Shown piece by piece: positions 42,166 through 54,778 of a stretch of 55,999 nucleotides of DNA; position 1 is the stretch's first letter; each line of letters opens with the position of its first letter. This DNA is from a virus, in the IMG/VR virus record IMGVR_UViG_3300021963_000155, positions 1 through 55,999 of that record. One strand, given 5' to 3'. The notes beneath the pieces were generated by a model. That model searched no databases. It was not told where the DNA came from and saw only the letters and a program-made list of their open reading frames with translations. The position numbers and the translations under genes were made by a program.

Positions 42166-42168
42166 GTT

Positions 42169-42653: not shown

Positions 42654-43006
42654 TACTCCACCGTCCAGAATGATAGTTGGCCTGCATATTCTTTCTGCTC
42701 CCGCTGGTAGTCTGCCCATGTATCCATAGGCTCATCACAATCCCAGAAGAGCGCATCCCATAGACGCAAGTCATCAAGGAGGCTACGTCCTGTCACCACC
42801 GCACCATTAGGCAACTCATATGTCCGATCAAATACAGACTCATCATCGTAGTCATAGTCCCAATTCTCGGGAATGTCTGCCCAACCTGAGATAAATGGAT
42901 ATGAGTCAGCCTGCAACTCATCGAAAATCTCCTGCACGCGCATCTGAATGTCAGCAGGAATGGGCGGGTAAAAGTTAGCAGTAAGGTGCATGGTGATATT
43001 AGGCAT
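42653..43006 (-). CDS. hypothetical acidic protein, 117 aa
   Basis: Acidic, Trp- and Asp-rich (GWADIPENWDYDYDDESVFD). Overlaps both neighbours by one base or a stop/start. Unknown function. Confidence 0.55.
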   Translation of the reverse strand: MPNITMHLTANFYPPIPADIQMRVQEIFDELQADSYPFISGWADIPENWDYDYDDESVFDRTYELPNGAVVTGRSLLDDLRLWDALFWDCDEPMDTWADYQREQKEYAGQLSFWTVE

Positions 43007-43182
43007 TAGCCCTCCATAGGTTCGATACTAACGGACTCCTGAAGATAGCCGCCCTCAGTAAGTACGGCCTCTCCTTGATAGTCACCATTATAGAAGTTTT
43101 CCATAGCCTCGTCAATATTAGAAGCCTCTACGTCCAACCTCCACCAATCCTCAGTAGTAAAACTAATCCTATACTTAGGCAT
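43006..43182 (-). CDS. hypothetical protein, 58 aa
   Basis: Start at 43182 set by GGAGGT on the minus strand. YRISFTTEDWWRLDVEASNIDEA: a strand-helix protein typical of this cluster of small genes. Unknown function. Confidence 0.55.
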   Translation of the reverse strand: MPKYRISFTTEDWWRLDVEASNIDEAMENFYNGDYQGEAVLTEGGYLQESVSIEPMEG

Positions 43183-43324
43183 GAGGAACCTCCAATGGAA
43201 TAACAAACCAGCCTTCGCCACCTTCACGCTCAGATCCATAGTCAATGGCTTCATCGTAGTCATCGAACGGGCCATAAAAATTATGACCATCGAAAGCATT
43301 GCCAAATGCTAATGCATACTTCAT
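43175..43324 (-). CDS. hypothetical protein, 49 aa
   Basis: Begins MKYALAFGNAFDGHNFYGPF; overlaps the next gene by 8 bases and the previous by 4. Unknown function. Confidence 0.5.
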   Translation of the reverse strand: MKYALAFGNAFDGHNFYGPFDDYDEAIDYGSEREGGEGWFVIPLEVPHA

Positions 43325-43563
43325 GCTGTAACCTCCCCAGGAGCAGGCCAAGTATCTACAATGTATACAAGAAGTCTGATTAGTTGCTCATCAAGCGCCT
43401 CCTCTAGCGGTGTTTCGCTGGTAGGAGAAAAGAAGCCGTAGCCAGTCTGAGCGGCAGACTCCTCATCATAGACGTTACCGTCAGGAAAGAAGGCGGCGGT
43501 ATCAAACTCTACCCCCCACCTCTTTAGGTCTGTGTCATAGGATACAACATAGTGAAACTGCAT
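43321..43563 (-). CDS. hypothetical protein, 80 aa
   Basis: Start at 43563 (TAATG overlap). MQFHYVVSYDTDLKRWGVEFD, then an acidic helix. Unknown function. Confidence 0.5.
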   Translation of the reverse strand: MQFHYVVSYDTDLKRWGVEFDTAAFFPDGNVYDEESAAQTGYGFFSPTSETPLEEALDEQLIRLLVYIVDTWPAPGEVTA

Positions 43564-43691
43564 TACTTCCACTTCCAATCTACTGAGTAGGGGAAACCAT
43601 AGTCCTCATCATAGTCAAAACGCTCGCCCATTACAAGCAAAGCGTCTGCTTCTTCTTCACAGTCAATCTCTACAATGAATGTATGTTTCAT
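43563..43691 (-). CDS. tiny acidic protein, 42 aa
   Basis: MKHTFIVEIDCEEEADALLV followed by DYDEDYGFPYSVDWKWK. Coupled at both ends by TAATG overlaps. Resembles the neighbouring small strand-helix proteins. Confidence 0.5.
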   Translation of the reverse strand: MKHTFIVEIDCEEEADALLVMGERFDYDEDYGFPYSVDWKWK

Positions 43692-43825
43692 TAGACAACC
43701 GTAGGTGGGGAATAGTCATGGGCTACATCCCAAAGTATGCTATACACATCCATCACGGCACCCTCTTCACTATCATTCTCTACCATGAATGTAACGTTCT
43801 CAACCTCTACGGTAAAAGTTGCCAT
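43691..43825 (-). CDS. tiny acidic protein, 44 aa
   Basis: Start at 43825; a second ATG at 43828 is in frame. MATFTVEVENVTFMVENDSE shows the same N-terminal strand pattern as the gene at 44562, suggesting a paralogue family. Confidence 0.5.
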   Translation of the reverse strand: MATFTVEVENVTFMVENDSEEGAVMDVYSILWDVAHDYSPPTVV

Positions 43826-44031
43826 CATGCCTCCACAAAGTTGTAGTAGTAACGAGTATAGCCAAGCGGGTTGGAAGAATCCTCGGGACGGAGGATAGGA
43901 TGATCTCCAAAATCCAATGTCCCCTTCACACCATCAGACATGCGCTTGACTACACACATGCCATAAGCAAATCCTAGAACCTCATACTGCTCTAGCATCT
44001 GATCCTTGGTAAGCATATTACTGGCTAGCAT
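43825..44031 (-). CDS. hypothetical protein, 68 aa
   Basis: TAATG overlap with the upstream gene. Mixed alpha/beta (GFAYGMCVVKRMSDGVKGTLDF). Unknown function. Confidence 0.5.
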   Translation of the reverse strand: MLASNMLTKDQMLEQYEVLGFAYGMCVVKRMSDGVKGTLDFGDHPILRPEDSSNPLGYTRYYYNFVEA

Positions 44032-44351
44032 TAGTCGTCAGCCTCCTCAAATGTCATGAGATACAAACTCTGCTCTCTTACCACCCACACCAAGCCCTCG
44101 CGGGTATTGGTGTTGAGATATTCTAGCGCATCCTCATAGGTCCAGTCAAGGGCGTCAAGAATCTCTGCCGCCTCCTCCTGAGCATCATCGGGATTAGGAG
44201 TACGCATCCACTCTACATCTTTGACAAACTGATCCCATTCCATCTCAAACCCGTAGTCATGGGCCATCTCAATAACGAGGGCGGTAAAGTCAAATGATGA
44301 CATATGACTACCGTCAATGTAGCAACCAGTCTCAACATCAGTCAGATTCAT
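44031..44351 (-). CDS. hypothetical acidic protein, 106 aa
   Basis: Start at ATG 44351 (GTG 44357 possible). Acidic and helical (EEAAEILDALDWTYEDALEYL). Unknown function. Confidence 0.5.
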   Translation of the reverse strand: MNLTDVETGCYIDGSHMSSFDFTALVIEMAHDYGFEMEWDQFVKDVEWMRTPNPDDAQEEAAEILDALDWTYEDALEYLNTNTREGLVWVVREQSLYLMTFEEADD

Positions 44352-44562
44352 CAGCACTCACATTCTCAACGGTGGGGACAATAGAAAGATTACCCATAAT
44401 CTCGTTATACAACTCAGGATCACGACCAGTAGAAAGATCGTCAGCCAACTGCTCCAACTCCTCGCGGGTCATATCATCCCAAGTCTCATACTCATACTCA
44501 AAGTCCATAAAGTGACCAGTTCCCTCGTAGATAAGTTCTACTGAGAATGTGATGGTTGCCAT
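44338..44562 (-). CDS. hypothetical acidic protein, 74 aa
   Basis: Start 44562 with GGAG upstream. MATITFSVELIYEGTGHFMD then TWDDMTREELEQLADDL. Shares its first strand with the 43825 gene. Unknown function. Confidence 0.5.
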   Translation of the reverse strand: MATITFSVELIYEGTGHFMDFEYEYETWDDMTREELEQLADDLSTGRDPELYNEIMGNLSIVPTVENVSADESD

Positions 44563-44563
44563 A

Positions 44564-44734
44564 CTAACTCCAGTCGTCAAGGCGGAAGTCGCCAGATGTA
44601 ATAGAATTATCCAACAGAGTAAACAGATACACAAAATGGTCCATAGCATACATGGGGTCTTGGGCAAGATGCCCCCATTCATCCCATCTAAATGCTAGAT
44701 CCCGTAGTTCCTCTAGTGCTTTACTTGGTTCCAT
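44564..44734 (-). CDS. hypothetical protein, 56 aa
   Basis: First gene of its operon; AGGAGG upstream. LEELRDLAFRWDEWGHLAQDP. Preceded by the TGTCAGAC promoter at 44758-44779. Confidence 0.55.
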   Translation of the reverse strand: MEPSKALEELRDLAFRWDEWGHLAQDPMYAMDHFVYLFTLLDNSITSGDFRLDDWS

Positions 44735-44757
44735 TACCCCTCCTATCGAATACATAA

Positions 44758-44779
44758 AGCGTAGCAGAGGGGTCTGACA
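44758..44779 (-). promoter_or_regulatory. TGTCAGAC promoter 1 (-10 TACGCT)
   Basis: TGTCAGAC (44779-44772), 8 bases, then TACGCT with TGC before it. Start site about 44751; leader with AGGAGG to ATG 44734. Confidence 0.65.
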
Positions 44780-44793
44780 TATTCCAGCGAAAA

Positions 44794-44858
44794 TTCCTGT
44801 GACTTTCGTAAGAAGATCGTAAATATGATTTGACAAATAGGGTAGTTTGGGGCCGGGC
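44794..44858. promoter_or_regulatory. composite intergenic module (TTCCTGTGA, TCGTAA x2, GC core)
   Basis: TTCCTGTGA 44794-44802, TCGTAA 44806-44811 and 44817-44822, GGGGCCGGGC 44849-44858. The same elements recur beside other minus-strand promoters. Confidence 0.5.
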
Positions 44859-44865
44859 ATTGGGA

Positions 44866-44969
44866 GGGCGGAGGAGAGGAGACCGTCAACTCTCCTCCGC
44901 CCAGATGGACCCTAGGGGGCGCGCGGCATGGTGGGGTTGGTGGCGGGTGCCGCACATTCCCCCTAGGGT
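44866..44969 (-). repeat. two GC-rich inverted repeats next to tRNA-Glu
   Basis: GGGCGGAGGAGAG (44866-44878) pairs with its complement at 44890-44902 (13 bp). ACCCTAGGGGG (44909-44919) pairs with 44959-44969 (11 bp), enclosing GCGGCA/TGCCGC (44923-44928/44948-44953) and a G-rich loop. Downstream of tRNA-Glu on the transcribed strand; no T-run. Confidence 0.6.
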
Positions 44970-45044
44970 GGTACTCCCAACGGGATTCGAACCCGTGCTA
45001 CCGCCTTGAAAGGGCGGCGTCCTTGGCCTCTAGACGATGGGAGC
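44969..45044 (-). tRNA. tRNA-Glu (UUC)
   Basis: Acceptor GCTCCCA / TGGGAGT (one G-U), anticodon loop CTTTCAA (TTC), T-arm CGGG-TTCGAAT-CCCG type, discriminator A followed by an encoded or chance CCA. Reads GAA, abundant in phage genes. Confidence 0.9.
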
Positions 45045-45051
45045 GGCCTTA

Positions 45052-45495
45052 CTAACTCTCAGACCAGTCGATCTCCATATGATCCTCTGAGAAATCAGAC
45101 TCTAGATCGCTGTAGTAGGACACATCAAGACTAGCATTCAGAGAATCCTCAAGGCTATCCATATCGAAATTGAGAGGAGCAGAGACAGTACCAGAGAATG
45201 TGACGGTAATTGTCACATCGTAGTCCTTGGTGATATTAAGAGAGAAGATATCAACAAGGCTCTGCGTCACATTCTCATCAATGTGGTCAAAGTTTTCCTG
45301 GAGGTACATCTCAAGACCGTCAATCTGGGCTTGACGATTGTTCGTCTGGCCCTTCCAGTAGTCACGGTCGGCAGTAATATTCTCCAACTCTGAATTCAGA
45401 CGGTTGATCTCAGTCTCAAGATCACGATACCTCTGCTCCAACTCCTGCATAGTTGGCGGGTAAGGATGAATGTTAGTCATACTAGGGTCAATCAT
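45052..45495 (-). CDS. coiled-coil protein, 147 aa
   Basis: ATG 45495 with GGAGGT upstream. Residues 15-65 form a strong coiled coil (ELEQRYRDLETEINRLNSEL); the C-terminal part is beta and very acidic. Unknown; an oligomeric anti-host or regulatory protein is possible. Confidence 0.6.
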   Translation of the reverse strand: MIDPSMTNIHPYPPTMQELEQRYRDLETEINRLNSELENITADRDYWKGQTNNRQAQIDGLEMYLQENFDHIDENVTQSLVDIFSLNITKDYDVTITVTFSGTVSAPLNFDMDSLEDSLNASLDVSYYSDLESDFSEDHMEIDWSES

Positions 45496-45496
45496 G

Positions 45497-45886
45497 TCAT
45501 ACCTCCATCAAAGTCTTAGCGTACTTGTTGATGAACTCGTTCAGCGAGAACGTGACAATCATATCAGTCAGAACTCCCGACTTCCAATCATAGTTGTAGA
45601 GAGTTACGGTCTGAAATGCAAAGTCATAGACAGGAACCTTATGCTCGTTGTCTGCAAGGTAGTTCACAGTAACACCCCAGCCAAGATCGCCAGACCAAGA
45701 CTCGCCAACCAACTGCGAGATGATGATGCGATTAGCATAAGCCTGATCGTCAATACGACCAACATTCTGAGTGTGGTCAAGAGCATTAGCAAACCTAGCA
45801 AGCATACCCTCGCCTGCCCAATGTCCGTAGACGTAGATGATGTTGCCGTCTACCTGACGCAATCCAAAGTTAGCGCGGTCTCCCAT
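45497..45886 (-). CDS. conserved MGDRANF-type phage protein
   Basis: 129 residues from ATG 45886, chosen because the predicted start of transcription is about 45909 and homologues begin MGDRANF. GNIIYVYGHWAGEGMLARFANAL and DNEHKVPVYDF are conserved features of a phage family of unknown function. Confidence 0.65.
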   Translation of the reverse strand: MGDRANFGLRQVDGNIIYVYGHWAGEGMLARFANALDHTQNVGRIDDQAYANRIIISQLVGESWSGDLGWGVTVNYLADNEHKVPVYDFAFQTVTLYNYDWKSGVLTDMIVTFSLNEFINKYAKTLMEV

Positions 45887-45915
45887 AACGGTCTCTTTCT
45901 GTAGTAGGTAGTAGA

Positions 45916-45937
45916 ACTCTATCATGTGGGTCTGACA
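45916..45937 (-). promoter_or_regulatory. TGTCAGAC promoter 2 (TTGACT, -10 TAGAGT)
   Basis: TGTCAGAC (45937-45930), 8 bases ending TGA, then TAGAGT (45921-45916). TTGACT lies 18 bases before the -10, just upstream of the octamer. Confidence 0.7.
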
Positions 45938-45954
45938 GTAGTCAAGACTTTATG

Positions 45955-46035
45955 TGCCCAAGGTGGGACTTGAACCCACACTCCAATGGAACACGATTTT
46001 GAGTCGTGCGTGTCTGCCAATTCCACCACTCGGGC
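45955..46035 (-). tRNA. tRNA-Leu (CAA)
   Basis: Acceptor GCCCGAG / CTTGGGC, anticodon stem CACGA/TCGTG with loop CTCAAAA (CAA), long variable arm, T-arm GTGGG-TTCAAGT-CCCAC, discriminator A. Reads TTG. Confidence 0.9.
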
Positions 46036-46079
46036 TAGATGGACAGTTTTAGCGAACATGTCCAGGTTCGCCCAACTGG

Positions 46080-46235
46080 TCAGCGACCAGCAGGGACGCC
46101 CTTGCGGAGTGTCTCAAGTGCGGGGGTTGAATCAACGAACTTGCCATCAACACGGGTAACAATACGAGTCTGAACCCCGTAGCGAGTGTTCCAAGTCTCA
46201 AGATATGAGAACTTGTTTGCCTTCTTCTTAGCCAT
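46080..46235 (-). CDS. hypothetical basic protein, 51 aa
   Basis: AAGGAGAAACAA precedes ATG 46235. MAKKKANKFSYLETWNTRYG; basic, one beta hairpin likely. Unknown function. Confidence 0.55.
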   Translation of the reverse strand: MAKKKANKFSYLETWNTRYGVQTRIVTRVDGKFVDSTPALETLRKGVPAGR

Positions 46236-46245
46236 TTGTTTCTCC

Positions 46246-46455
46246 TTATTCTAGAATGAGTAGGTCGATCATGTCATCTTCGGGGAGGTGGTAGATATCT
46301 TCCTCTCCGTCAAGGTCTTTATAGTGAATATCATACCCTCCTTCCACCGAATCTACAAAGGAAACGACTATCTCATTTCCGTCGGCGGTGCGGAGAATAT
46401 CATTTGGTTCTATAGAGAACCCATATAACTTATCAGCAACTAGGTATTCACCCAT
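46246..46455 (-). CDS. hypothetical protein, 69 aa
   Basis: Beta-rich, SH3-like pattern (DILRTADGNEIVVSFVDSVEGG), acidic. Transcribed from the TTGACG promoter at 46486-46514. Unknown function. Confidence 0.55.
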   Translation of the reverse strand: MGEYLVADKLYGFSIEPNDILRTADGNEIVVSFVDSVEGGYDIHYKDLDGEEDIYHLPEDDMIDLLILE

Positions 46456-46485
46456 CTATTTCCTCCCCTCTTCAGTTATGACTCT

Positions 46486-46514
46486 AAAGTACACGATATT
46501 GCCGTGATCGTCAA
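46486..46514 (-). promoter_or_regulatory. promoter, TTGACG-17-TACTTT
   Basis: TTGACG (46514-46509), 17 bases, TACTTT (46491-46486), 31 bases before ATG 46455. It lacks the TGTCAGAC octamer but has a good -35 instead. Confidence 0.6.
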
Positions 46515-46531
46515 GGGGAGAGTCTTAAAAG

Positions 46532-46608
46532 TTCCTGTGAAATATCCTGTGATTTCTTAATCGTAATCGTAAATATATGGACATATGTATGCAAAGCGGC
46601 CCGGCCCC
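46532..46608. promoter_or_regulatory. composite intergenic module
   Basis: TTCCTGTGA 46532-46540 and a second CCTGTGA 46547-46553, TCGTAA 46561-46566 and 46567-46572, GC core GCGGCCCGGCCCC 46596-46608. Confidence 0.5.
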
Positions 46609-46627
46609 AAATTCCAGATTTGTCAAG

Positions 46628-46700
46628 CGCACCTGATGGGATTCGAACCCACGATCTCCACCGTGACAGGGTGGCGAGATAACCGCTACTCTACAAGTGC
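46628..46700 (-). tRNA. tRNA-Asp (GUC)
   Basis: Acceptor GCACTTG / CAGGTGC, anticodon stem CCACC/GGTGG with loop CTGTCAC (GTC), T-arm GTGGG-TTCGAAT-CCCAT, discriminator G, no CCA. Confidence 0.9.
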
Positions 46701-46704
46701 CAAG

Positions 46705-46772
46705 CACCACCCCAAAGAATCGAACTCTGCACGACAAGGGTTGGAATCTCGTCTGCGCCCAGCGCGGGTGGC
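46705..46772 (-). tRNA. atypical tRNA-Trp-like sequence (CCA) with short D-arm
   Basis: Acceptor GCCACCC / GGGTGGT, T-arm CAGAG-TTCGATT-CTTTG, anticodon loop TTCCAAC (CCA) on a stem with an A-C mismatch. Only 14 bases lie between acceptor and anticodon stem, too few for a normal D-arm. It may be degenerate or a novel form. 68 nt. Confidence 0.45.
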
Positions 46773-46776
46773 GTGC

Positions 46777-46797
46777 AGGCAGTTTTACATCATGCCC
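46777..46797 (-). repeat. short hairpin between gene end and tRNA-like sequence
   Basis: Minus strand GGGCA/TGCCT stem with an 11-base loop, near-identical in place and sequence to the element at 41855-41875. Confidence 0.4.
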
Positions 46798-46808
46798 AGG
46801 ATGTTTGA

Positions 46809-47804
46809 TTATGCGAAAGCGATCTCCTTGACCGCCTTCAGGATGCGACCCTTCTCCGCATTGGTGACAGGATCGAAACCGCTAGCGGCTGCTGCAACAT
46901 TCTCAGCACCCCGCTCACCACGGCCCTTGCGGAACCAGTCCAGACGCTCCGTGAGAGCATTGAACGCACCCCACGCGGTGCCTGCGATCATGTTAGTGGT
47001 ATCGGAAGAGTAAATCTCCTCCAGCAGATCGACCTTAGTCTCCCACTTCTTGACCGCGCCCTTAGCATCCTTATCAGGACGCGGGTAGACAGCCTCAAGA
47101 ATGGCATCGAACTTAGCCTTGGTGATCTCCTTGGCGATAAGAGCCTGAGCCTCCTTATCGAAGGTGTCAAGGTACTGATTGGCGAGAGAAAGAGCCTCGC
47201 GTGCAGCCATGACCTTACCGCCTACGGTCTGCGTGTGACGAATCTTGAAGGACTGCTTCACGCCCTGAAGAGCCATGTTCAGAGTGTTCTGGCACACAAC
47301 GCGGACGGGAGTGATAGAAGCCTGCACAGCGGTAGAACCGTCATGCGAGGTGTGGACGAGAAGGTAGGACTTCACAACATCCGAAACGCCGTTGGGATCA
47401 AGGACAGTCTCACGCTCAAGCGCAAGCGAACCGAACACAACGCGACCCTGACGAATAGAGCCAGCAGTCTCCCAGCGACCACCGTCAAGCAGCGCATCAC
47501 CAAAGTCGAAAAGATCCTCGTTCTGAAGAACGTGGTAACGCTCGCCAACGGTAGCGAGAACGTCAGTTCCCTGGTCAAAGGGGTTGTCACGCAGCACCAT
47601 GTAGGAGGGCGTGATCACATTGTAGTCGGAAGGGTAAGGAACGGCCTCAAGGCGAACGTCCCAGTTGGAAAGGTAAGCCGCATCCAGCATCTCGCGGGTG
47701 GACTTCTCCTCAAAGAACACGGTGCCAAGACCATGCCAAGCGGGTTCGCGGAAGGAAGCAAAAGCCTGCTCGCCGTTAGCGCCAACCTCTACTGCGTGTG
47801 CCAT
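46809..47804 (-). CDS. DUF932 (phage/plasmid-like) protein
   Basis: 331 residues. FREPAWHGLGTVF, DVLATVGERYHVLQNEDLFDFGDALLDGG, LLVHTSHDGSTAVQASITPVRVVCQNTLN and the end KGRILKAVKEIAFA define the DUF932/TIGR03299 family found in phages and plasmids. Distinctly GC-rich codons compared with the left arm. Own TGTCAGAC promoter and GGAG site. Molecular role unknown; probably abundant early protein. Confidence 0.85.
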   Translation of the reverse strand: MAHAVEVGANGEQAFASFREPAWHGLGTVFFEEKSTREMLDAAYLSNWDVRLEAVPYPSDYNVITPSYMVLRDNPFDQGTDVLATVGERYHVLQNEDLFDFGDALLDGGRWETAGSIRQGRVVFGSLALERETVLDPNGVSDVVKSYLLVHTSHDGSTAVQASITPVRVVCQNTLNMALQGVKQSFKIRHTQTVGGKVMAAREALSLANQYLDTFDKEAQALIAKEITKAKFDAILEAVYPRPDKDAKGAVKKWETKVDLLEEIYSSDTTNMIAGTAWGAFNALTERLDWFRKGRGERGAENVAAAASGFDPVTNAEKGRILKAVKEIAFA

Positions 47805-47838
47805 ATGTATCTCCTTAGTTGATTGAACTTATAGAAGA

Positions 47839-47860
47839 ACTATACACTCTAGGTCTGACA
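47839..47860 (-). promoter_or_regulatory. TGTCAGAC promoter 3 (TTGAGA-17-TATAGT)
   Basis: TGTCAGAC (47860-47853), 8 bases, TATAGT (47844-47839); TTGAGA at the -35 with 17-base spacing. Leader of about 28 bases to ATG 47804. Confidence 0.7.
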
Positions 47861-47908
47861 GTCTCAAGCATTTCTATTAGATTATTTAGATAACATTTCA
47901 GTGACAAT

Positions 47909-47972
47909 TTCCAGTGACTTCTTAAATGTCGTCGTAAATACTTGACAAGATTAGGATTTGCGGGCCGGGCCC
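47909..47972. promoter_or_regulatory. composite intergenic module
   Basis: TTCCAGTGA 47909-47917, TCGTAA 47932-47937, TTGACA 47942-47947 on the plus strand, GC core CGGGCCGGGCCC 47961-47972. Confidence 0.5.
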
Positions 47973-47973
47973 T

Positions 47974-48051
47974 TTAGGGCCTTTTGTCAAGTAGGCCAAT
48001 AAGGATTCCGATGCCTAGAAATAGCGCAAGAGTTACAAGAATAATCTCCAT
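47974..48051 (-). CDS. tiny membrane peptide, 25 aa
   Basis: MEIILVTLALFLGIGILIGLLDKRP: one transmembrane helix with a basic end. Such single-pass peptides often serve as host-membrane effectors. Its stop abuts the GC core. Confidence 0.4.
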   Translation of the reverse strand: MEIILVTLALFLGIGILIGLLDKRP

Positions 48052-48053
48052 TT

Positions 48054-48110
48054 CACACCCCCACAAAATCGCGCAGCATCTCCCGAAAGTTCTCTAGCGT
48101 GATATCGTTC
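48054..48110 (-). CDS. possible micro-ORF, 18 aa
   Basis: ATG 48110 overlaps the upstream gene stop and the frame (MNDITLENFREMLRDFVGV) ends just before the membrane peptide. Size makes it uncertain. Confidence 0.25.
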
Positions 48111-48270
48111 ATGAGTATTCCTCCGCAATAGTTACCGCGACAATGAACCTATCATCATCGGTTGCACTTTCTACCCTGTCCCAATCTTTATCGGTCCACC
48201 CGCTAGTGTCAATGACAACTAGGCCGTGTGCGCTTCCGTAGTTTCCATCCATTGCAAAATAAGTTGACAT
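48109..48270 (-). CDS. hypothetical protein, 53 aa
   Basis: Start 48270 (TAATG overlap, GAGG upstream). FAMDGNYGSAHGLVVIDTSG, acidic. Unknown function. Confidence 0.5.
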   Translation of the reverse strand: MSTYFAMDGNYGSAHGLVVIDTSGWTDKDWDRVESATDDDRFIVAVTIAEEYS

Positions 48271-48383
48271 TATTCCTCTTCTAAGTCTATTAGATTCTCT
48301 CCGCATGTATCGCAATAAAACTCTAGTTCGCTACACCCATCACACCAGAATGGGATTAGGTTATGGGCAGTCGCAAGGCTCAT
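48270..48383 (-). CDS. tiny zinc-ribbon protein, 37 aa
   Basis: WCDGC and YCDTC pairs form a compact zinc ribbon; acidic tail DLEEE. Overlaps genes at both ends. Confidence 0.5.
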   Translation of the reverse strand: MSLATAHNLIPFWCDGCSELEFYCDTCGENLIDLEEE

Positions 48384-48465
48384 CGCACTCCTCGCAGTCG
48401 CAATGCCCTTCAGAACAGCAAAGCACACAATAGCATTGTGCATCATAGTCTAGATCGATGGTCAC
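48361..48465 (-). CDS. very cysteine-rich peptide, 34 aa
   Basis: GTG start overlapping the upstream stop as GTGA. Nine cysteines in 34 residues (QCYCVLCC, HCDCEECDEPCDC). Could be a metallothionein-like metal binder. Low complexity, so the call rests on coupling. Confidence 0.45.
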   Translation of the reverse strand: MTIDLDYDAQCYCVLCCSEGHCDCEECDEPCDCP

Positions 48466-49019
48466 GCTGCACCCCCTCGCACAATAATCCAGATAAGTGC
48501 CTGCGCGGTGCGCGGTGTGATTCCGAATTGCTGCGCCACAGCCACGACAGCCTCAGACAGTAGCGCGTATTGAGTCTTATTAGGAGAGTCAATCTCCATG
48601 CCTGCCGCACGCATCATCCAAACGTCAATGACAACCGCGTTAGTGTCGCCTGCGATAGCGCGAGCGAATGCGTTAGTCTTCTGACCCTTGAGCGCATCAA
48701 AGCCTGCCGCGACTGAGGCGTCAGCCATGCGGAGATTATTGCCAAGGCCAGCGGGACGCGAGCCAAGCGAGTACGCGATAGCCTTAGCGACGTTAGTGGA
48801 CCAACGCTCACGCGGCGAGAATGCTGCAACGATAGACGCGCCAACCTCAAGTGAGGTGCCAAGGTTGCGAGCAACCTCAGAGGCAACGGCAGCGGCGTCA
48901 TGGTACCAGACGCTAGCAGCCTCAGTCTGCGAAAGGGTGGCGGTCATGATAAGGCTCTCAAAACGAGCGGCGTAGGTAGCGAATGCGAGTGTGCCCTCAG
49001 GGGCGGTAACTGTAATCAT
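48462..49019 (-). CDS. DUF7178-like protein, 185 aa
   Basis: WYHDAAAVASEVARNLGTSLEVGASIVAAFSPRERWSTNVAKA and AGDTNAVVIDVWMMRAAG mark a phage family of helical proteins; the S-P-R-x-x-W segment recalls helix-hairpin-helix DNA glycosylase-like folds, but catalytic function is unproven. Ala-rich and GC-rich. Leaderless start under promoter 4. Confidence 0.6.
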   Translation of the reverse strand: MITVTAPEGTLAFATYAARFESLIMTATLSQTEAASVWYHDAAAVASEVARNLGTSLEVGASIVAAFSPRERWSTNVAKAIAYSLGSRPAGLGNNLRMADASVAAGFDALKGQKTNAFARAIAGDTNAVVIDVWMMRAAGMEIDSPNKTQYALLSEAVVAVAQQFGITPRTAQALIWIIVRGGAA

Positions 49020-49025
49020 GGAATG

Positions 49026-49047
49026 ATCCTAGCACTAGGGTCTGACA
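49026..49047 (-). promoter_or_regulatory. TGTCAGAC promoter 4, leaderless (TAGGAT)
   Basis: TGTCAGAC (49047-49040), 8 bases ending TGC, TAGGAT (49031-49026), then exactly six bases to ATG 49019. Confidence 0.7.
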
Positions 49048-49068
49048 ATGAAAGGGGGAATATTGGGA

Positions 49069-49215
49069 TCAGTCGGTAACGAAACGGTTACGATGCTTGT
49101 CCTTGCGCGAATACTTGGCCTTATTCTTATGAGGCTGCGCGGCATTAGAGCGACGACGCTCAACAACGATACGATTATGCTCCGCACTACGGCGGGGGCT
49201 CACACGATTACTCAT
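49069..49215 (-). CDS. small basic protein, 48 aa
   Basis: MSNRVSPRRSAEHNRIVVER, then KNKAKYSRKDKHRNR: strongly basic, probably nucleic-acid binding. Leaderless start under the TTGACA promoter at 49222-49251. Confidence 0.55.
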   Translation of the reverse strand: MSNRVSPRRSAEHNRIVVERRRSNAAQPHKNKAKYSRKDKHRNRFVTD

Positions 49216-49221
49216 AGAGTG

Positions 49222-49251
49222 ATCCTACCATGACCGTGATCCCCGTGTCAA
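49222..49251 (-). promoter_or_regulatory. promoter TTGACA-18-TAGGAT, leaderless
   Basis: TTGACA (49251-49246), 18 bases ending TGG, TAGGAT (49227-49222), six bases to ATG 49215. Same -10 and spacing as promoter 4 but consensus -35 in place of the octamer. Confidence 0.72.
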
Positions 49252-49252
49252 A

Positions 49253-49303
49253 TCGTAAGAGGTCGTAAATCTATGAGTATTCTTGGAAAACGGGCCGGGG
49301 CCG
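49253..49303. promoter_or_regulatory. composite intergenic module
   Basis: TCGTAA 49253-49258 and 49263-49268, GC core CGGGCCGGGGCCG 49291-49303; a CCGTGA lies at 49234-49239. Confidence 0.45.
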
Positions 49304-49319
49304 CTTTCGCGGGGTGGTA

Positions 49320-49448
49320 TTAGATAAAATCCACCAAATCCCCATCCATGATCTCTGATGGATCGATTCCCAAATCTTCTGCGATAGCCTCCCACAGTTC
49401 ATCCTCTGTGAAGTCACCATCGGCGGGAAGGTAATCTAGATAACTCAT
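49320..49448 (-). CDS. tiny acidic protein, 42 aa
   Basis: MSYLDYLPADGDFTEDELWE then a DLGIDPSEIMDGDL end; acidic helical. Overlap-free but close to the gene upstream. Unknown. Confidence 0.45.
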   Translation of the reverse strand: MSYLDYLPADGDFTEDELWEAIAEDLGIDPSEIMDGDLVDFI

Positions 49449-49449
49449 T

Positions 49450-49584
49450 TTAATACTCCTGTTCGTCTACTTGGTCAATGATCTCGTTATACAGGGACGT
49501 TACGATCCATCCCTGCGACATTAGTTCCTGTAGGCACGTTAGCAATTGATCCCAATTGGCACGCGGCATCTCTACCTTTACCAT
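49450..49584 (-). CDS. tiny protein, 44 aa
   Basis: Start 49584 (ATG 49587 possible). RANWDQLLTCLQELMSQGWI looks like one amphipathic helix. Coupled to the WhiB gene by an ATGA overlap. Confidence 0.45.
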   Translation of the reverse strand: MVKVEMPRANWDQLLTCLQELMSQGWIVTSLYNEIIDQVDEQEY

Positions 49585-49799
49585 CATGCCACCGCCAATG
49601 CAACGCGCTTACGCTCTTCACCTGTCATGCCACCATAGACATGCGGCTCAAAATCCTCATTGTCAATTGCAAATGCGAGACAATTCTTCACAACGCTGCA
49701 CGTTGCACAAATCGACTTAGCCTTTTCGATGCGCGAGGCAACTCCACTCAGGAAGATATCGCTATCCGCATCCTTGCACGCTGCCCTATCCTGCCACAT
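49584..49799 (-). CDS. whiB: WhiB-family iron-sulfur regulator (copy 2)
   Basis: 71 residues from ATG 49799. AACKDADSDIFL, CATCSVVKNC and VYGGMTGEERKRV give the four cysteines and the G-[VI]-x-GG turn. Only distantly like copy 1. Promoter 5 gives a leader of about 47 bases. Confidence 0.82.
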   Translation of the reverse strand: MWQDRAACKDADSDIFLSGVASRIEKAKSICATCSVVKNCLAFAIDNEDFEPHVYGGMTGEERKRVALAVA

Positions 49800-49852
49800 T
49801 CTGATCCTTCTTCCACTCACGCGCTTCCTTGCGCTTGATGATTCTACGTTCC

Positions 49853-49874
49853 ATCTTATCAGAGGGGACTGACA
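49853..49874 (-). promoter_or_regulatory. TGTCAGTC promoter 5 (variant, TAAGAT)
   Basis: TGTCAGTC (49874-49867), 8 bases ending TGA, TAAGAT (49858-49853). One mismatch in the octamer, spacing unchanged. Drives whiB copy 2. Confidence 0.6.
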
Positions 49875-49927
49875 GGCAGCACCCGAAGTAGCACCGCAGG
49901 CGGTGCTTGCCAACATTGCGGCGTGAC

Positions 49928-50089
49928 CTAAGCAGGAAAATCACTCCCATCTAGAATCTCGTAGTCCTCAAAACTACCTCCACCAGACTGAATCTCCTGA
50001 GCAATCCAGTTCAAGGCACCGTCGCGGTGGTAGAAAGCCTTCTTGTACCTATTGCGGTAGTAAACCTTATAGACATTGTTGGTCTGCAT
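49928..50089 (-). CDS. hypothetical protein, 53 aa
   Basis: MQTNNVYKVYYRNRYKKAFY then an acidic C-terminus. TAATG-type overlap with the upstream gene. Unknown. Confidence 0.5.
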   Translation of the reverse strand: MQTNNVYKVYYRNRYKKAFYHRDGALNWIAQEIQSGGGSFEDYEILDGSDFPA

Positions 50090-50232
50090 TAGAAAGGCAC
50101 CTCCTCATAGCGCACCCCATCGACAATCAGAGTGCCGTCGTCCAGATACATGCACCGCGCATAGTCGAATGCATGATCGCCAAGCATGTAGTAGTTATCC
50201 AGCCATGCCTTCTCAAACTCTACTGTGGTCAT
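50089..50232 (-). CDS. hypothetical protein, 47 aa
   Basis: MTTVEFEKAWLDNYYMLGDH; alpha/beta, acidic. Overlaps neighbours at both ends. Unknown. Confidence 0.5.
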   Translation of the reverse strand: MTTVEFEKAWLDNYYMLGDHAFDYARCMYLDDGTLIVDGVRYEEVPF

Positions 50233-50360
50233 GCTCCCACCTCCACAATCTCAACGGTCTGACGGGGTGATGCCCAAAAGTCACGAATAGTCTCAGCACC
50301 CTCGCGGGTGGCAACCGTGGAGAAAAACTCTCCATCTACGAACACCTTGTATGTTGTCAT
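50229..50360 (-). CDS. hypothetical protein, 43 aa
   Basis: MTTYKVFVDGEFFSTVATRE. Leaderless start six bases after the TAAGGT of promoter 6. Shares the MTT start pattern with the next gene. Unknown. Confidence 0.5.
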   Translation of the reverse strand: MTTYKVFVDGEFFSTVATREGAETIRDFWASPRQTVEIVEVGA

Positions 50361-50503
50361 GGCTTCACCTTATCATCAGGGTCTGACACCCAAGGGTTGG
50401 GGTCAAGGTCAAGGCTCAACTTCATAGCCTCCATCTCGTCATGGTGACGAGCGAACCAATCCTCGTCGGCGGGGTAATAATGCATCTCTGTCCTTTCACT
50501 CAT
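50357..50503 (-). CDS. hypothetical protein, 48 aa
   Basis: MSERTEMHYYPADEDWFARH; its C-terminal residues WVSDPDDKVKP are encoded by promoter 6 of the next gene. Leaderless under promoter 7. Confidence 0.5.
   Translation of the reverse strand: MSERTEMHYYPADEDWFARHHDEMEAMKLSLDLDPNPWVSDPDDKVKP
50367..50388 (-). promoter_or_regulatory. TGTCAGAC promoter 6, leaderless, inside coding sequence
   Basis: TGTCAGAC (50388-50381), 8 bases ending TGA, TAAGGT (50372-50367), six bases to ATG 50360. Confidence 0.68.
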
Positions 50504-50509
50504 AGGATG

Positions 50510-50531
50510 ACCTTATCATAGGGGTCTGACA
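50510..50531 (-). promoter_or_regulatory. TGTCAGAC promoter 7, leaderless
   Basis: TGTCAGAC (50531-50524), 8 bases ending TGA, TAAGGT (50515-50510), six bases to ATG 50503. Confidence 0.7.
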
Positions 50532-50539
50532 CTCAAGCA

Positions 50540-50616
50540 TTCCCGTGACCGTTTTCGTGTGTGTCGTATGTCACATCGTAAGACTTGACAATGTGAGGAT
50601 TTTCGGGCCGGGGCCC
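50540..50616. promoter_or_regulatory. composite intergenic module
   Basis: TTCCCGTGA 50540-50548, TCGTAA 50576-50581, CTTGACA on the plus strand near 50584-50590, GC core CGGGCCGGGGCCC 50604-50616. Confidence 0.5.
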
Positions 50617-50621
50617 AAAGC

Positions 50622-50822
50622 CTAAATGTCAAGTCTATCTTGCAATTCCAATTGAATATTTTCTAGAAAGTGTTCAATGTTTTCAAGCATGACAAAATCA
50701 TCATCTATAGTTGCGCTCGCCCACATGCGCTTGATGCGATCCTGAATCTGTCCAAGGTCGTTATAGATCATCTTGCAATTCAGAATGAATGGATCGGGTG
50801 GCATTACTTTTACGTTAGACAT
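50622..50822 (-). CDS. hypothetical helical protein, 66 aa
   Basis: Two helices (CKMIYNDLGQIQDRIKRMW and MLENIEHFLENIQLELQDRL) suggest a helical hairpin. Overlaps the upstream gene by 8 bases. Unknown. Confidence 0.5.
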   Translation of the reverse strand: MSNVKVMPPDPFILNCKMIYNDLGQIQDRIKRMWASATIDDDFVMLENIEHFLENIQLELQDRLDI

Positions 50823-51006
50823 ACTCTCTGATTCTCCTATTCACTGCCGCGCAAAACTCTACAAATGTGGGAGTGCTACCGTCTGCCATGAATCCAAAGG
50901 TGAAACAGTCGATTTCTTCACCCTCACGGTTATAGATACTGACGGTATGCGATTCGTTCCAACGATACGTCAATCCTGAGCGTGAGTCGTGAAGATCCAA
51001 CCTCAT
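50815..51006 (-). CDS. small protein, paralogue of the upstream gene, 63 aa
   Basis: Start 51006 (ATGA overlap). LHDSRSGLTYRWNESHTVSI and PTFVEFCAAVNRRI match the 51003-51191 protein along the full length: a tandem duplication. Unknown function. Confidence 0.6.
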   Translation of the reverse strand: MRLDLHDSRSGLTYRWNESHTVSIYNREGEEIDCFTFGFMADGSTPTFVEFCAAVNRRIREYV

Positions 51007-51191
51007 TCCGACAACCACCTTTCAGCAGCCGCAGCAAACTCTACAAATGTAGGTCGCGTTCCCTTTTCAGTCATGCCAAAAGAAAACACATCGAATACCT
51101 TACCACTAGCAGAACGAATCTCTACGGTATGCGAACCATTCCATTCGAAAGTGTAACCACTCTCGCTATCTATGATGGATAGACGAAACAT
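51003..51191 (-). CDS. small protein, tandem paralogue, 62 aa
   Basis: IIDSESGYTFEWNGSHTVEI and RPTFVEFAAAAERW correspond to the downstream gene. Beta-rich N-half, helix at the end. Unknown function. Confidence 0.6.
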   Translation of the reverse strand: MFRLSIIDSESGYTFEWNGSHTVEIRSASGKVFDVFSFGMTEKGTRPTFVEFAAAAERWLSE

Positions 51192-51472
51192 CAGAACTCC
51201 AATCCCATCGAAGCCAGACCCGTTACCAATTCCGCCTGAATCACGGGGTCGTTCATGTCCTCAGGCTTGAGCCACTTTACCATAGCAGAGCCACGCGACT
51301 GCATGGTATTTCCCTGCGTGTCGGTTACAAGGAACCAGTCATCCTCTAGCGGTTCGATGATGAACCACCGCGTATGGAGAACACCTTTGCTGCTTTCCCC
51401 AAGGATGCCCTCTACGAATGGAGGGCACTCCCGCATGGGAGTGGTAACGATACGATCTACTGAATCAATCAT
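51191..51472 (-). CDS. hypothetical protein, 93 aa
   Basis: Beta-rich centre (LHTRWFIIEPLEDDWFLVTD) and a conserved-looking C-terminal helix. Coupled to both neighbours. Unknown. Confidence 0.5.
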   Translation of the reverse strand: MIDSVDRIVTTPMRECPPFVEGILGESSKGVLHTRWFIIEPLEDDWFLVTDTQGNTMQSRGSAMVKWLKPEDMNDPVIQAELVTGLASMGLEF

Positions 51473-51666
51473 TAGAACAACACCTCCACACTACCCGCGT
51501 CGTTCATCCAGATGACGAACTCTGCATCCTTACCGCGAGCGCAGACGTACCAACGTGCCTGCTGCGGACCACGGTGCTGCATGTGGTACACTTCCACATA
51601 CTCGCCGCGCGTGGAGCGGGTGGAGATGAGGTCTCCTACCTTTACTTCCTTAGTTGAGATGTGCAT
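51472..51666 (-). CDS. hypothetical protein, 64 aa
   Basis: Start 51666 set by AGGAGGT; the predicted transcription start excludes an upstream ATG. VKVGDLISTRSTRGEYVEVY resembles a small beta-barrel. Unknown. Confidence 0.55.
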   Translation of the reverse strand: MHISTKEVKVGDLISTRSTRGEYVEVYHMQHRGPQQARWYVCARGKDAEFVIWMNDAGSVEVLF

Positions 51667-51689
51667 CCCAACCTCCTTTCGATACCCCC

Positions 51690-51711
51690 AACCTATCATA
51701 GAGGGCTGACA
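51690..51711 (-). promoter_or_regulatory. TGTCAGCC promoter 8 (variant, TAGGTT)
   Basis: TGTCAGCC (51711-51704), 8 bases ending TGA, TAGGTT (51695-51690). One mismatch in the octamer. Confidence 0.6.
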
Positions 51712-51727
51712 TTACCTAATCCAGAAT

Positions 51728-51868
51728 GCATACAAATCGGACAACTTTCATAACAGGTTGGTAACGGCGATATGTCCAATATGTCTGTCAAATCGACATG
51801 CCGTGATTCGTGATCATCGTAACGTAATCGTAACCTAGGTGATATGTCCGATTCGCGGCCCGGCCCCG
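51728..51868. promoter_or_regulatory. composite intergenic module with 16-bp repeat
   Basis: GCATACAAATCGGACA at 51728-51743 recurs at 53001-53016. TCGTAA 51817-51822 and 51828-51833, GC core CGCGGCCCGGCCCCG 51854-51868. Confidence 0.5.
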
Positions 51869-51890
51869 CAGAAGCGATTTGTCAAGTACT

Positions 51891-51920
51891 GAAAAACCCT
51901 TTATTTATAAGGCTTTTTCG
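51891..51920 (-). terminator. possible intrinsic terminator
   Basis: Minus strand: GCCTT ... AAGGG followed by TTTTT, with a short AT loop; it overlaps the 3' end of the 51905-52009 gene. Confidence 0.4.
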
Positions 51921-52009
51921 ACACTCTCTTTCTCACACATGCACGCATCGAAGTTACCACGCGCATCCGACAACATAAGCCGCAAACACTTATCGCAAGT
52001 TCGGAACAT
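51905..52009 (-). CDS. tiny zinc-ribbon protein, 34 aa
   Basis: CDKC and CMCE pairs; starts two bases inside the end of the upstream gene region. Unknown. Confidence 0.45.
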   Translation of the reverse strand: MFRTCDKCLRLMLSDARGNFDACMCEKESVEKAL

Positions 52010-52010
52010 G

Positions 52011-52286
52011 TCACTCGCCTCCCGTGCCGTAGTTCTCCATGAATTGCGCGAAGTAGATCAGCGGGACATAGGGGTAGACCTCATGCGAGTAGAGTGCAGC
52101 AAACTCAGGCAGAGGCTCAGTAACCCATTCGCCATTCTTGAAGAATGCAAGTTCGACGGAATGCGGGAAGCGTGCATACGCACCATCACCGATTGCGATA
52201 GACACCTCATCTGCCATTGGATGCGCGATGGTAGCCTTAGCGTTGATTAGATGAGTCTCACCATAGGATTCTACGCGGGTAATCAT
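52011..52286 (-). CDS. hypothetical protein, 91 aa
   Basis: Beta N-terminus (VESYGETHLINAKATIAHPM) and aromatic C-terminus (YPYVPLIYFAQFMENYG). TAATG overlap with upstream gene. Unknown. Confidence 0.5.
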   Translation of the reverse strand: MITRVESYGETHLINAKATIAHPMADEVSIAIGDGAYARFPHSVELAFFKNGEWVTEPLPEFAALYSHEVYPYVPLIYFAQFMENYGTGGE

Positions 52287-52381
52287 TAGAAGCCTCCCTC
52301 TATTCCACCAACGATAGCCATAGCAGTAAGGATACCGCTAATGATGACGAATGAAGTAACGTGCTGCAGGAATGTTCTCAT
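52286..52381 (-). CDS. tiny membrane protein, 31 aa
   Basis: VTSFVIISGILTAMAIVGG is one transmembrane helix. Leaderless start six bases after TAAGGT of promoter 9. Unknown. Confidence 0.45.
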   Translation of the reverse strand: MRTFLQHVTSFVIISGILTAMAIVGGIEGGF

Positions 52382-52383
52382 GA

Positions 52384-52503
52384 TTATACCTTATCACTAG
52401 AGTCTGACAGTCTACGCTCTTCAGCCTTAGCCTGGAGCCATGCTTTCCAATCCTCGCGCTGCTTGGCAGCGGCGGTGTAGTCAATGTATGCGAACTTACT
52501 CAT
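52384..52503 (-). CDS. tiny protein, 39 aa
   Basis: MSKFAYIDYTAAAKQREDWK helical; its last codons (RLSDSSDKV) overlap promoter 9. Unknown. Confidence 0.45.
   Translation of the reverse strand: MSKFAYIDYTAAAKQREDWKAWLQAKAEERRLSDSSDKV
52388..52409 (-). promoter_or_regulatory. TGTCAGAC promoter 9, leaderless, inside coding sequence
   Basis: TGTCAGAC (52409-52402), 8 bases ending TGA, TAAGGT (52393-52388), six bases to ATG 52381. Confidence 0.68.
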
Positions 52504-52526
52504 GGTCTAGCCTTTCTATTTACGGT

Positions 52527-52572
52527 GTGGCCTAGGGCTCATCCCTCATGGGGCTTATTTGCCTAGGAAGAT
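52527..52572 (-). repeat. CCTAGG-flanked hairpin element, copy A
   Basis: Minus strand: CCTAGGCAAATAA, a small CCCC/GGGG-type hairpin, then GAGCCCTAGGCCA. Lies between two small genes. A second copy is at 52772-52813. Confidence 0.5.
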
Positions 52573-52579
52573 TTAGTTA

Positions 52580-52723
52580 TTAGGCGAACGTCCTAGCCAT
52601 GTGGCAATTCGCACACATGATGTCGTCACCTACGATTGACATAGCCTCAGGGCTGTTGGTGCCACAATCCTTGCACCGCGCATTCTTGACGATGCGGCGG
52701 AGGGTAGCCTTGGTGATTCGCAT
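52580..52723 (-). CDS. zinc-ribbon protein, 47 aa
   Basis: CKDC and CANCH pairs with a basic N-terminus (MRITKATLRRIVKNARCKDC). Promoter 10 upstream. Unknown. Confidence 0.5.
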   Translation of the reverse strand: MRITKATLRRIVKNARCKDCGTNSPEAMSIVGDDIMCANCHMARTFA

Positions 52724-52745
52724 TTCGTTTCCTTTCTTTTCCCCT

Positions 52746-52767
52746 ACTCTAGCATAGGGGTCTGACA
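52746..52767 (-). promoter_or_regulatory. TGTCAGAC promoter 10 (TAGAGT)
   Basis: TGTCAGAC (52767-52760), 8 bases ending TGC, TAGAGT (52751-52746). Leader with AAAGGAAA to ATG 52723. Confidence 0.68.
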
Positions 52768-52771
52768 GTCT

Positions 52772-52813
52772 GGCCTAGGGCTCACCCGCCCGAAGCGGTT
52801 TATTTGCCTAGGA
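52772..52813 (-). repeat. CCTAGG-flanked hairpin element, copy B
   Basis: Minus strand: CCTAGGCAAATAA, hairpin CCGC-TTCGG-GCGG, then GAGCCCTAGGCCA. The hairpin changes while flanks are kept, which suggests structure is selected. Confidence 0.5.
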
Positions 52814-52827
52814 AGGCGGGGGATTGA

Positions 52828-52929
52828 CTAGGAGCCAATCAACTGAGCATCAACAACATGCTCGTCGCATACGCGAACATGGTTCACGTTGATGGTAGCG
52901 GTATCGCTACAGAATGAACACTTGATCAT
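52828..52929 (-). CDS. tiny zinc-finger protein, 33 aa
   Basis: CSFC and CDEH form a C2CH knuckle. AAAGGAAG upstream. Promoter 11. Unknown. Confidence 0.5.
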   Translation of the reverse strand: MIKCSFCSDTATINVNHVRVCDEHVVDAQLIGS

Positions 52930-52962
52930 TTTCTTTCACTTCCTTTCTCTTTCTATGCCTTC

Positions 52963-52984
52963 AGTCTACATGGGGGGTCTGACA
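52963..52984 (-). promoter_or_regulatory. TGTCAGAC promoter 11 (TAGACT)
   Basis: TGTCAGAC (52984-52977), 8 bases, TAGACT (52968-52963). Confidence 0.65.
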
Positions 52985-54574: not shown

Positions 54575-54606
54575 GGATGCCTTTTCTATTTTCGACTTTC
54601 GCTTTG

Positions 54607-54679
54607 TGCCCCAGGTAGGAATCGAACCTACGACTTACGCATTAGAAGTGCGTTACTCTATCCCCTGAGTTACTGAGGC
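54607..54679 (-). tRNA. tRNA-Arg (UCU)
   Basis: Acceptor GCCTCAG / CTGGGGC, anticodon loop CTTCTAA (TCT), T-arm GTAGG-TTCGATT-CCTAC, discriminator A, no CCA. Reads AGA, heavily used in the AT-rich left arm. Confidence 0.92.
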
Positions 54680-54685
54680 GTGTTG

Positions 54686-54767
54686 TACGGCGGGTGGGAA
54701 TTGAACCCACATGGACCAATTACGGCATTATAATCCCTCGCTTATAAGACGAGACCGATACCGCCGC
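54686..54767 (-). tRNA. atypical tRNA-Ile-like sequence (UAU) apparently lacking a D-arm
   Basis: Acceptor GCGGCGG / CCGCCGT (one G-U), T-arm GTGGG-TTCAATT-CCCAC, anticodon stem CTCGT/GCGAG with canonical loop CTTATAA (TAT). Only seven bases separate acceptor and anticodon stem, while the variable region has 26 bases with GGA/TCC pairing. It would read ATA. Confidence 0.45.
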
Positions 54768-54778
54768 TCGCTATTAAG

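Follow-up and report, generated by a model that had tools for sequence, protein, structure and literature searches.

Putative promoters of PafBC-like form recur in a leftward gene block of uncultivated actinophages

The stretch of DNA analysed here, referred to as the window, is IMG/VR virus record IMGVR_UViG_3300021963_000155 (55,999 bases), which is probably a fragment. Small genes on its minus strand, together with a DUF932 gene and a whiB gene, form a leftward block in which one promoter-like element recurs, i.e., the octamer TGTCAGAC followed after exactly 8 bases by a TANNNT hexamer. Nine exact matches to TGTCAGAC-N8-TANNNT were found in the window, all on the minus strand, as opposed to a mean of 0.03 and a maximum of 1 in 100 dinucleotide-preserving shuffles of the window, and two further sites with the N8 spacing kept contained one-base variants of the octamer (TGTCAGTC at 49867 and TGTCAGCC at 51704). 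Thus, the eleven minus-strand octamers reported in the initial annotation (44772, 45930, 47853, 49040, 49867, 50381, 50524, 51704, 52402, 52760 and 52977) were all recovered in place, each with TANNNT at the 8-base distance and at a frequency far above that of shuffled sequence. TGTCAG was present in all eleven, and the last two letters of the octamer were AC, TC or CC.

The sites, all read on the minus strand, were followed in every case by the start codon of an open reading frame (ORF) of at least 30 aa, which bears out the earlier statement that most lie just upstream of gene starts. Promoter 1 (44758-44779, TGTCAGAC-CCCTCTGC-TACGCT) is located 23 nt ahead of the ATG of a 56-aa gene (44564-44734), and promoter 2 (45916-45937, TGTCAGAC-CCACATGA-TAGAGT), with TTGACT as -35 and an 18-bp spacer, 29 nt ahead of the ATG of a 129-aa gene. 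Promoter 3 (47839-47860, TGTCAGAC-CTAGAGTG-TATAGT; -35 TTGAGA, 17-bp spacer) precedes by 34 nt the DUF932/TIGR03299 gene (46809-47804, minus strand; Pfam DUF932 3.6e-52, NCBIfam TIGR03299 1.6e-54), which served as the anchor for collecting related loci. Promoter 5 (49853-49874, TGTCAGTC-CCCTCTGA-TAAGAT) lies ahead of a whiB-like regulator gene (49584-49799, minus strand; Pfam Whib 1.3e-15 on 49584-49793, PHROG 472 5.4e-15), with 53 nt between hexamer and ATG and 32 nt between hexamer and an in-frame GTG. Frames of 64, 47 and 33 aa begin with an ATG 23, 22 and 33 nt after promoter 8 (51690-51711, TGTCAGCC-CTCTATGA-TAGGTT), promoter 10 (52746-52767, TGTCAGAC-CCCTATGC-TAGAGT) and promoter 11 (52963-52984, TGTCAGAC-CCCCCATG-TAGACT), respectively, so that hexamer and ATG are 22-34 nt apart at six sites. 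At the four remaining sites (49040, 50381, 50524 and 52402) the ATG comes only 6 nt after the hexamer, and with the hexamer at -12 to -7 the first transcribed base would fall on the A of the ATG, a leaderless layout. These are promoter 4 (49026-49047, TGTCAGAC-CCTAGTGC-TAGGAT), ahead of a DUF7178 gene, and promoter 6 (50367-50388, TGTCAGAC-CCTGATGA-TAAGGT), promoter 7 (50510-50531, TGTCAGAC-CCCTATGA-TAAGGT) and promoter 9 (52388-52409, TGTCAGAC-TCTAGTGA-TAAGGT), ahead of frames of 43, 48 and 31 aa.

When the octamer was relaxed to TGTCRG-N10-TANNNT, the whole window gave 12 minus-strand matches (the eleven sites and 51951-51972) and 1 plus-strand match, and the 12 minus-strand matches between 41000 and 54000 compared with a mean of 0.088 and a maximum of 2 in 500 runs of an order-2 Markov model. 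Among the 25 minus-strand TGTCRG hexamers of the window, TANNNT followed at the N8 spacing in 12, while the runner-up spacing accounted for 4. The octamer by itself, with up to one mismatch, was not over-represented (42 occurrences in the window versus 38 expected); the signal is therefore the octamer at N8 before TANNNT. No ORF of 30 aa or more begins within 70 nt of the extra match at 51951-51972 (minus strand, TGTCGGAT...), which is probably due to chance. A possible degenerate copy, for which a weaker claim is made, is located at 41629-41650 on the minus strand (TGTCACAC-ACATATGA-TAGGAT, with one mismatch in TGTCAG), 5 nt before an ATG. The minus-strand block likely carries a promoter family under shared control, as the initial annotation had also judged.

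That annotation knew of no described phage promoter of this form. The form has, however, already been described in bacteria, where the actinobacterial RecA-independent DNA-damage promoter, a LexA/RecA-independent promoter of mycobacteria like recA P1, has the consensus tTGTCRgtg-8 nt-TannnT (PMC5656591). According to a second report, PafB occupies the -26 motif of such promoters, PafC contacts domain 4 of sigma-A, and single-stranded DNA (ssDNA) bound at the WYL domains activates PafBC (PMC11804915). As judged from their sequence, the phage sites have the form of these PafBC (RecA-NDp) promoters. Their probable assignment to this class draws on the element itself, its distance to the -10 and the parallels seen in hosts.

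Occurrence of the element in related viruses, which the initial annotation had proposed as a check, was followed in two sets of loci, both of which contain near-identical contigs, and hundreds of sites were found. The motif-picked set was obtained by scanning IMG/VR for a 15-base version of the motif (TGTCAGACCC..., with the AC octamer) and comprised at least 120 viral loci; the protein-picked set comprised the best 80 of 222 loci matched by the DUF932 protein, chosen without regard to the motif and representing 61 distinct upstream regions. In 120 motif-picked loci, octamers outside the query used to fetch them stood at N8 in 231 of 241 cases for TGTCAGTG and 56 of 84 for TGTCGGTG, and the variants seen in the window, likewise outside the query, did so in 82 of 91 (TGTCAGTC) and 35 of 43 (TGTCAGCC), whereas scrambled octamers did so in 0 of 19 and 1 of 14. 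Three or more same-strand sites were present in 97 of these 120 loci, and 53 of the 120 shared one of eight window proteins. In the 80 protein-picked loci, 459 sites were located on the gene strand and 20 on the other strand, where the reversed pattern gave 3 and 12, respectively; N8 was the spacing for 459 of 765 gene-strand TGTCRG hexamers, the runner-up spacing accounting for 82. At least one gene-strand site was present in 73 of the 80, and the exact motif occurred no more than 200 bp upstream of the DUF932 gene in 57. Similarly, 253 sites versus 28 reversed were counted in 21 whole viral records, of which 20 had been picked by the motif and one was the window. Endings of the octamer in phages ranged over TG, AC, TC and CC, and among 726 unique sites from the motif-picked loci and the window, a set fetched with AC, they were AC in 253, with TGTCAGTG in 207 and TGTCGGTG in 55. 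A palindrome of the form that we take to be the LexA box was seen within about 60 bp of 1 of 1034 unique phage sites.

Positions of start codons were informative with regard to the start of transcription. Thus, among the 666 sites for which the available sequence was long enough, ATGs opening ORFs of at least 30 aa piled up at 6 nt (24 sites) and 7 nt (18 sites) past TANNNT, while the distances of 0-5 and 8-16 nt had 0-2 each, and a second, broad group appeared at about 23-40 nt. When classified by the first start codon, 43 sites were of leaderless type and 610 leadered, and a Shine-Dalgarno-like stretch was present in 532 of the 610 by a test that was permissive and run without a control. The seventh base past TANNNT was A in 65% of the 726 sites. 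These observations lend indirect support to a start 6-7 nt after TANNNT, which falls within the 6-8 nt foreseen in the initial annotation. On that numbering the octamer would occupy about -28 to -21, in agreement with the earlier placement of it in the spacer between -35 and -10.

TGn extended -10 elements were common among the 726 sites, and TTGACA matched at 5 or 6 of its 6 positions with a spacer of 17 or 18 was present in 100 of 704 and 84 of 372 sites; most sites therefore have no good -35, a scarcity that is as expected under sigma adaptation. The position of the octamer would also suit an operator for a host or phage repressor that, bound in the spacer, keeps RNA polymerase off otherwise strong extended -10 promoters, the more so as TGn is common, a near-consensus -35 is present at some sites and a -35-like element is usual at DUF932 promoters. 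We regard a repressor as improbable, since the majority of sites, with no good -35, would need help rather than blocking, and since the protein described at the same position and spacing is an activator (PMC11804915). The single orientation of the sites and their fixed distance to the -10 are, moreover, features that a repressor would not be expected to require.

Sites of the same form were also noted in bacteria. Fifteen actinobacterial genomes, reached by way of motif loci, contained 3 to 85 sites as opposed to 1 to 27 reversed, with a clear excess in G043 (S. flavidovirens, 82 versus 6 reversed) and G042 (Lentzea alba, 85 versus 9). The class of a further genome, G033, is represented by 197 genomes, part of which show the excess; among 20 sites listed for G033 itself the ending was AC in 7 and TG in 6, so that AC endings are not confined to phages. 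TGTCAGNS-N8-TANNNT was found 148 times versus 61 reversed in 28 genomes of 1.2-1.5 Mb. A scan of the whole genome collection with the 15-base pattern was set aside, as it returned at least 119 stretches that were mostly chance background across phyla.

Thirty actinobacterial loci downstream of TGTCAGACCC...TGNTANNNT included some damage genes and many with no repair gene. Thus, sbcD was found behind this form in two Streptomyces, one copy being full length (TIGR00619, 183 bits against a cut-off of 77.65) with its ATG 8 nt past the hexamer. At another locus a radA-like gene (TIGR00416, 351 bits, below the cut-off of 403) began 6 nt past the hexamer. A weaker SbcD/Mre11-like gene, with a start at least 131 nt from the hexamer, a mycothiol-transferase/DinB gene and a WGR gene were also noted; host gene names beyond those matched by profile are ones we presume. 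Small genomes of one actinobacterial class (29 of 1.0-1.5 Mb) were examined for WYL genes and recA. From coordinates, a tandem WYL pair with genes about 1 kb apart was present in 25 of 28 (G339 not included), and in 17 of these 25 (i.e., all but G293, G310 and G326, which had no tandem pair) the motif preceded the Walker motif of RecA by no more than 700 bp, TG and CC endings being among them. At 15 of these 17 recA loci (L438, L440-L443, L445-L448, L450-L454 and L457) a LexA-form palindrome was noted directly after the motif, and to go by this arrangement the two damage systems may meet there at one start.

The occurrence of the motif ahead of host sbcD, radA-like and recA genes bears on another account of the phage sites, namely that they are plain extended -10 promoters in which TGTCAG is a by-product of cassette descent with no dedicated protein. 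Good -10 and TGn elements are compatible with it and recombination may spread promoter cassettes; with TGTCRG and its spacing constant while the flanks vary, and with the same motif at these host genes, we consider it highly improbable.

Phage-encoded readers of the octamer were looked for by profile in viral records that may be incomplete. No WYL domain was found in 30 such records and no sigma-70 region 2 in 33, and a phage WYL activator and a phage sigma factor were both rejected as candidates. Of the binders suggested in the initial annotation, a bound activator appears likely, and a phage sigma factor is not supported. HTH_11 above its cut-off was likewise seen in 0 of 33 records, in which there were two sub-threshold matches. 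One of these is a short frame resembling HTH_11 at 16933-16992 of the window (plus strand), and a similar frame is present in another motif-bearing record (G005). An activator encoded by the phage could have taken over the PafBC type of site and read the -26 octamer with host PafBC uninvolved. The two sub-threshold frames and the possible incompleteness of the records leave room for such a protein, and AC, although the commonest phage ending (in the AC-fetched set), is rare at the sites listed in the 15 actinobacterial genomes. Against these points stand the profile results given above and the variety of phage endings, of which TG and CC are also seen at recA of small genomes while AC is common in other genomes; taken together, we think such an activator unlikely.

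A WhiB-type regulator of the phage, bound to sigma-A and selecting promoters, was considered for other reasons, i.e., whiB is itself under the site at 49867, and WhiB matches occur in many of the viral records, including all 9 motif-bearing ones larger than 100 kb. WhiB is, however, also present in 9 of 19 cultured phages (18 picked by a DUF932 match, plus Wakanda), a set that sits at the control level for the motif. Furthermore, WhiB was not matched in one record of 98 kb that carries 17 sites (G009), and many host genomes are rich in TGTCRG-N8 sites, some of which stand ahead of damage genes. A WhiB-type reader therefore seems to us a poor prospect.

With no WYL or sigma-70 region 2 match and no HTH_11 match above cut-off in the viral records searched, WhiB also present in cultured phages at the control level for the motif, and most sites without a good -35, we favour dependence on a host protein, and consider it likely that the phages run the gene block from the ssDNA-sensing host activator PafBC; PafBC itself, the ssDNA trigger and the timing are what we infer. 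The sites would be sigma-A promoters of the PafBC (RecA-NDp) type, with TGTCAGAC, at about -28 to -21, as the -26 element and TANNNT, usually after TGn, as the -10. Infection or phage DNA synthesis would expose ssDNA and so activate host PafBC, present constitutively, which would wedge between domain 4 of sigma-A and DNA at the -26 element, after which host RNA polymerase would initiate 6-7 nt past TANNNT. The leftward block of small genes, DUF932 and whiB included, would thus be turned on from at least 11 places, and no phage activator, phage sigma factor or LexA-like box would be needed.

Several observations weigh against dependence on PafBC. The 19 cultured actinophages, Streptomyces phages included, contained 21 sites versus 22 reversed, even though such sites are numerous in a Streptomyces genome. 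Some TGTCRG octamers are rarely found at N8 in the 120 motif-picked viral loci (TGTCGGAC 0 of 7, TGTCAGGC 0 of 9, TGTCAGAA 2 of 36), and the exact motif is missing from the 200 bp upstream of 23 of the 80 DUF932 genes. At DUF932 promoters with a perfect -26 element, 41 of 45 also match TTGACA at 4 or more of 6 positions with a spacer of 17 or 18, and replacement of the -35 by the -26 element at this gene was rejected as there was no anticorrelation between them (rho 0.08, p 0.55; 61 distinct upstream regions). Given that these promoters usually keep a -35-like element with no trade-off, the -26 element there may be a modifier. On the host side, the motif is missing upstream of recA in 8 of the 25 small genomes, its excess is slight in G037 (13 versus 11 reversed) and G045 (3 versus 1), many mid-size genomes show little or none, and part of the class of G033 shows none. 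The terminase of the window had no match among 394 Actinomycetes genomes, in a search run without a positive control, and the host was not found in this way. To these are added the WhiB match in every motif-bearing record above 100 kb, the possibility that a phage activator was missed in incomplete records, and the ending TG, which belongs to the mycobacterial consensus and occurs in 0 of 11 window sites. The last letters of that consensus are printed in lower case and were read as weak positions, which makes the TG ending a soft feature.

Other features of the window concern the phage itself. Its WhiB gene marks it as an actinophage, and a second WhiB-like gene was noted at 26502-26675 (plus strand) beside the minus-strand one, there placed at 49605-49796. 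In two freshwater actinophage studies, whiB is taken as a marker of actinobacterial hosts (PMC6802176, PMC10202952); from these and from the size of the small actinobacterial genomes examined, our guess is that the group is probably from freshwater. Streptomyces phage Jay2Jay (Stanwilliamsviridae) shows at its left end the same leftward gene order, from DUF932 to ThyX. Jay2Jay was rejected as a motif-bearing cultured relative, since it has this block but 0 TGTCRG-N8-TANNNT in its first 15 kb.

GC content was about 0.35-0.44 in the left part of the window and 0.47-0.51 in the leftward block (42001-52000), as if the block were of different origin or under different codon pressure. Six minus-strand tRNA genes (Tyr, Glu, Leu, Asp, Arg and Ile) were noted in the right part (41770-41850, 44969-46700 and 54606-54774), the end of tRNA-Leu lying 16 bp ahead of promoter 2. 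Upstream, on the minus strand, of 44779, 47860, 52984 and 51711 there are recurring intergenic modules, namely TTACGA repeats with TCACNGGAATT behind them, and TGTCCGATTT; possibly such a module is the site of a second regulator. TGTCCGATT was found upstream of 71 of the 1034 viral sites, versus 25 for its reverse complement, at a median of 33 bases ahead of the octamer, and the DnaA-box-like TTATCCACA was found upstream of 112 (reverse complement, 64) and also at about 41730 and 41300 of the window.

For the wider proposition, that a large group of actinophages, uncultivated and probably from freshwater, has wired whole gene blocks to PafBC with entry or replication of phage DNA as the signal, we judge the chances to be slightly better than even. 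If it is true, the damage alarm of the host would be a transcriptional switch of the phage, one that the host could not readily silence except at the cost of its main DNA repair response, and WYL factors, known from control of host damage and defence, would serve a phage. Many TGTCRG-N8-TANNNT sites in uncultivated actinophages would gain a testable function, and the element would help to recognise promoters and leaderless genes of phages known from metagenomes, besides marking a point of host dependency.

Searches of the literature, which covered the titles and abstract openings of the papers listed and had most subscription journals outside their scope, found no phage promoters of the PafBC kind, no use of such promoters for phage gene blocks and nothing relevant to the octamer. 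With the PafBC promoters of bacteria (RecA-NDp, recA P1) the phage sites share TGTCRG, the 8-nt spacer, TANNNT and, usually, the lack of a good -35, and host recA and sbcD have such sites upstream. They differ in being repeated, 11 times in about 8 kb, within a block of phage genes, in the ending of the octamer, and in that a LexA-like box beside them is almost absent. At the SiwR promoters of mycobacteria a WYL activator also acts at the -26 region, in that case on a palindrome containing GGA instead of TGTCRG and for a host operon (PMC10693628). The sites may also be likened to the middle promoters of phage T4 (MotA box and -10, with AsiA), in which the site of an activator replaces the sigma contact at -35 (PMC6755090). 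T4 itself encodes MotA and AsiA, whereas for the present phages a host factor is proposed and phage WYL and sigma proteins went unmatched, MotA and AsiA not having been among the proteins searched for. LexA-controlled phage promoters couple phage expression to the damage response of the host through SOS induction of prophages. LexA is a repressor that is removed through RecA, whereas the protein proposed here is an activator that is itself activated by ssDNA; phage promoters that recruit a WYL activator of the host would thus be a second route, besides LexA, by which phages read the host damage response.

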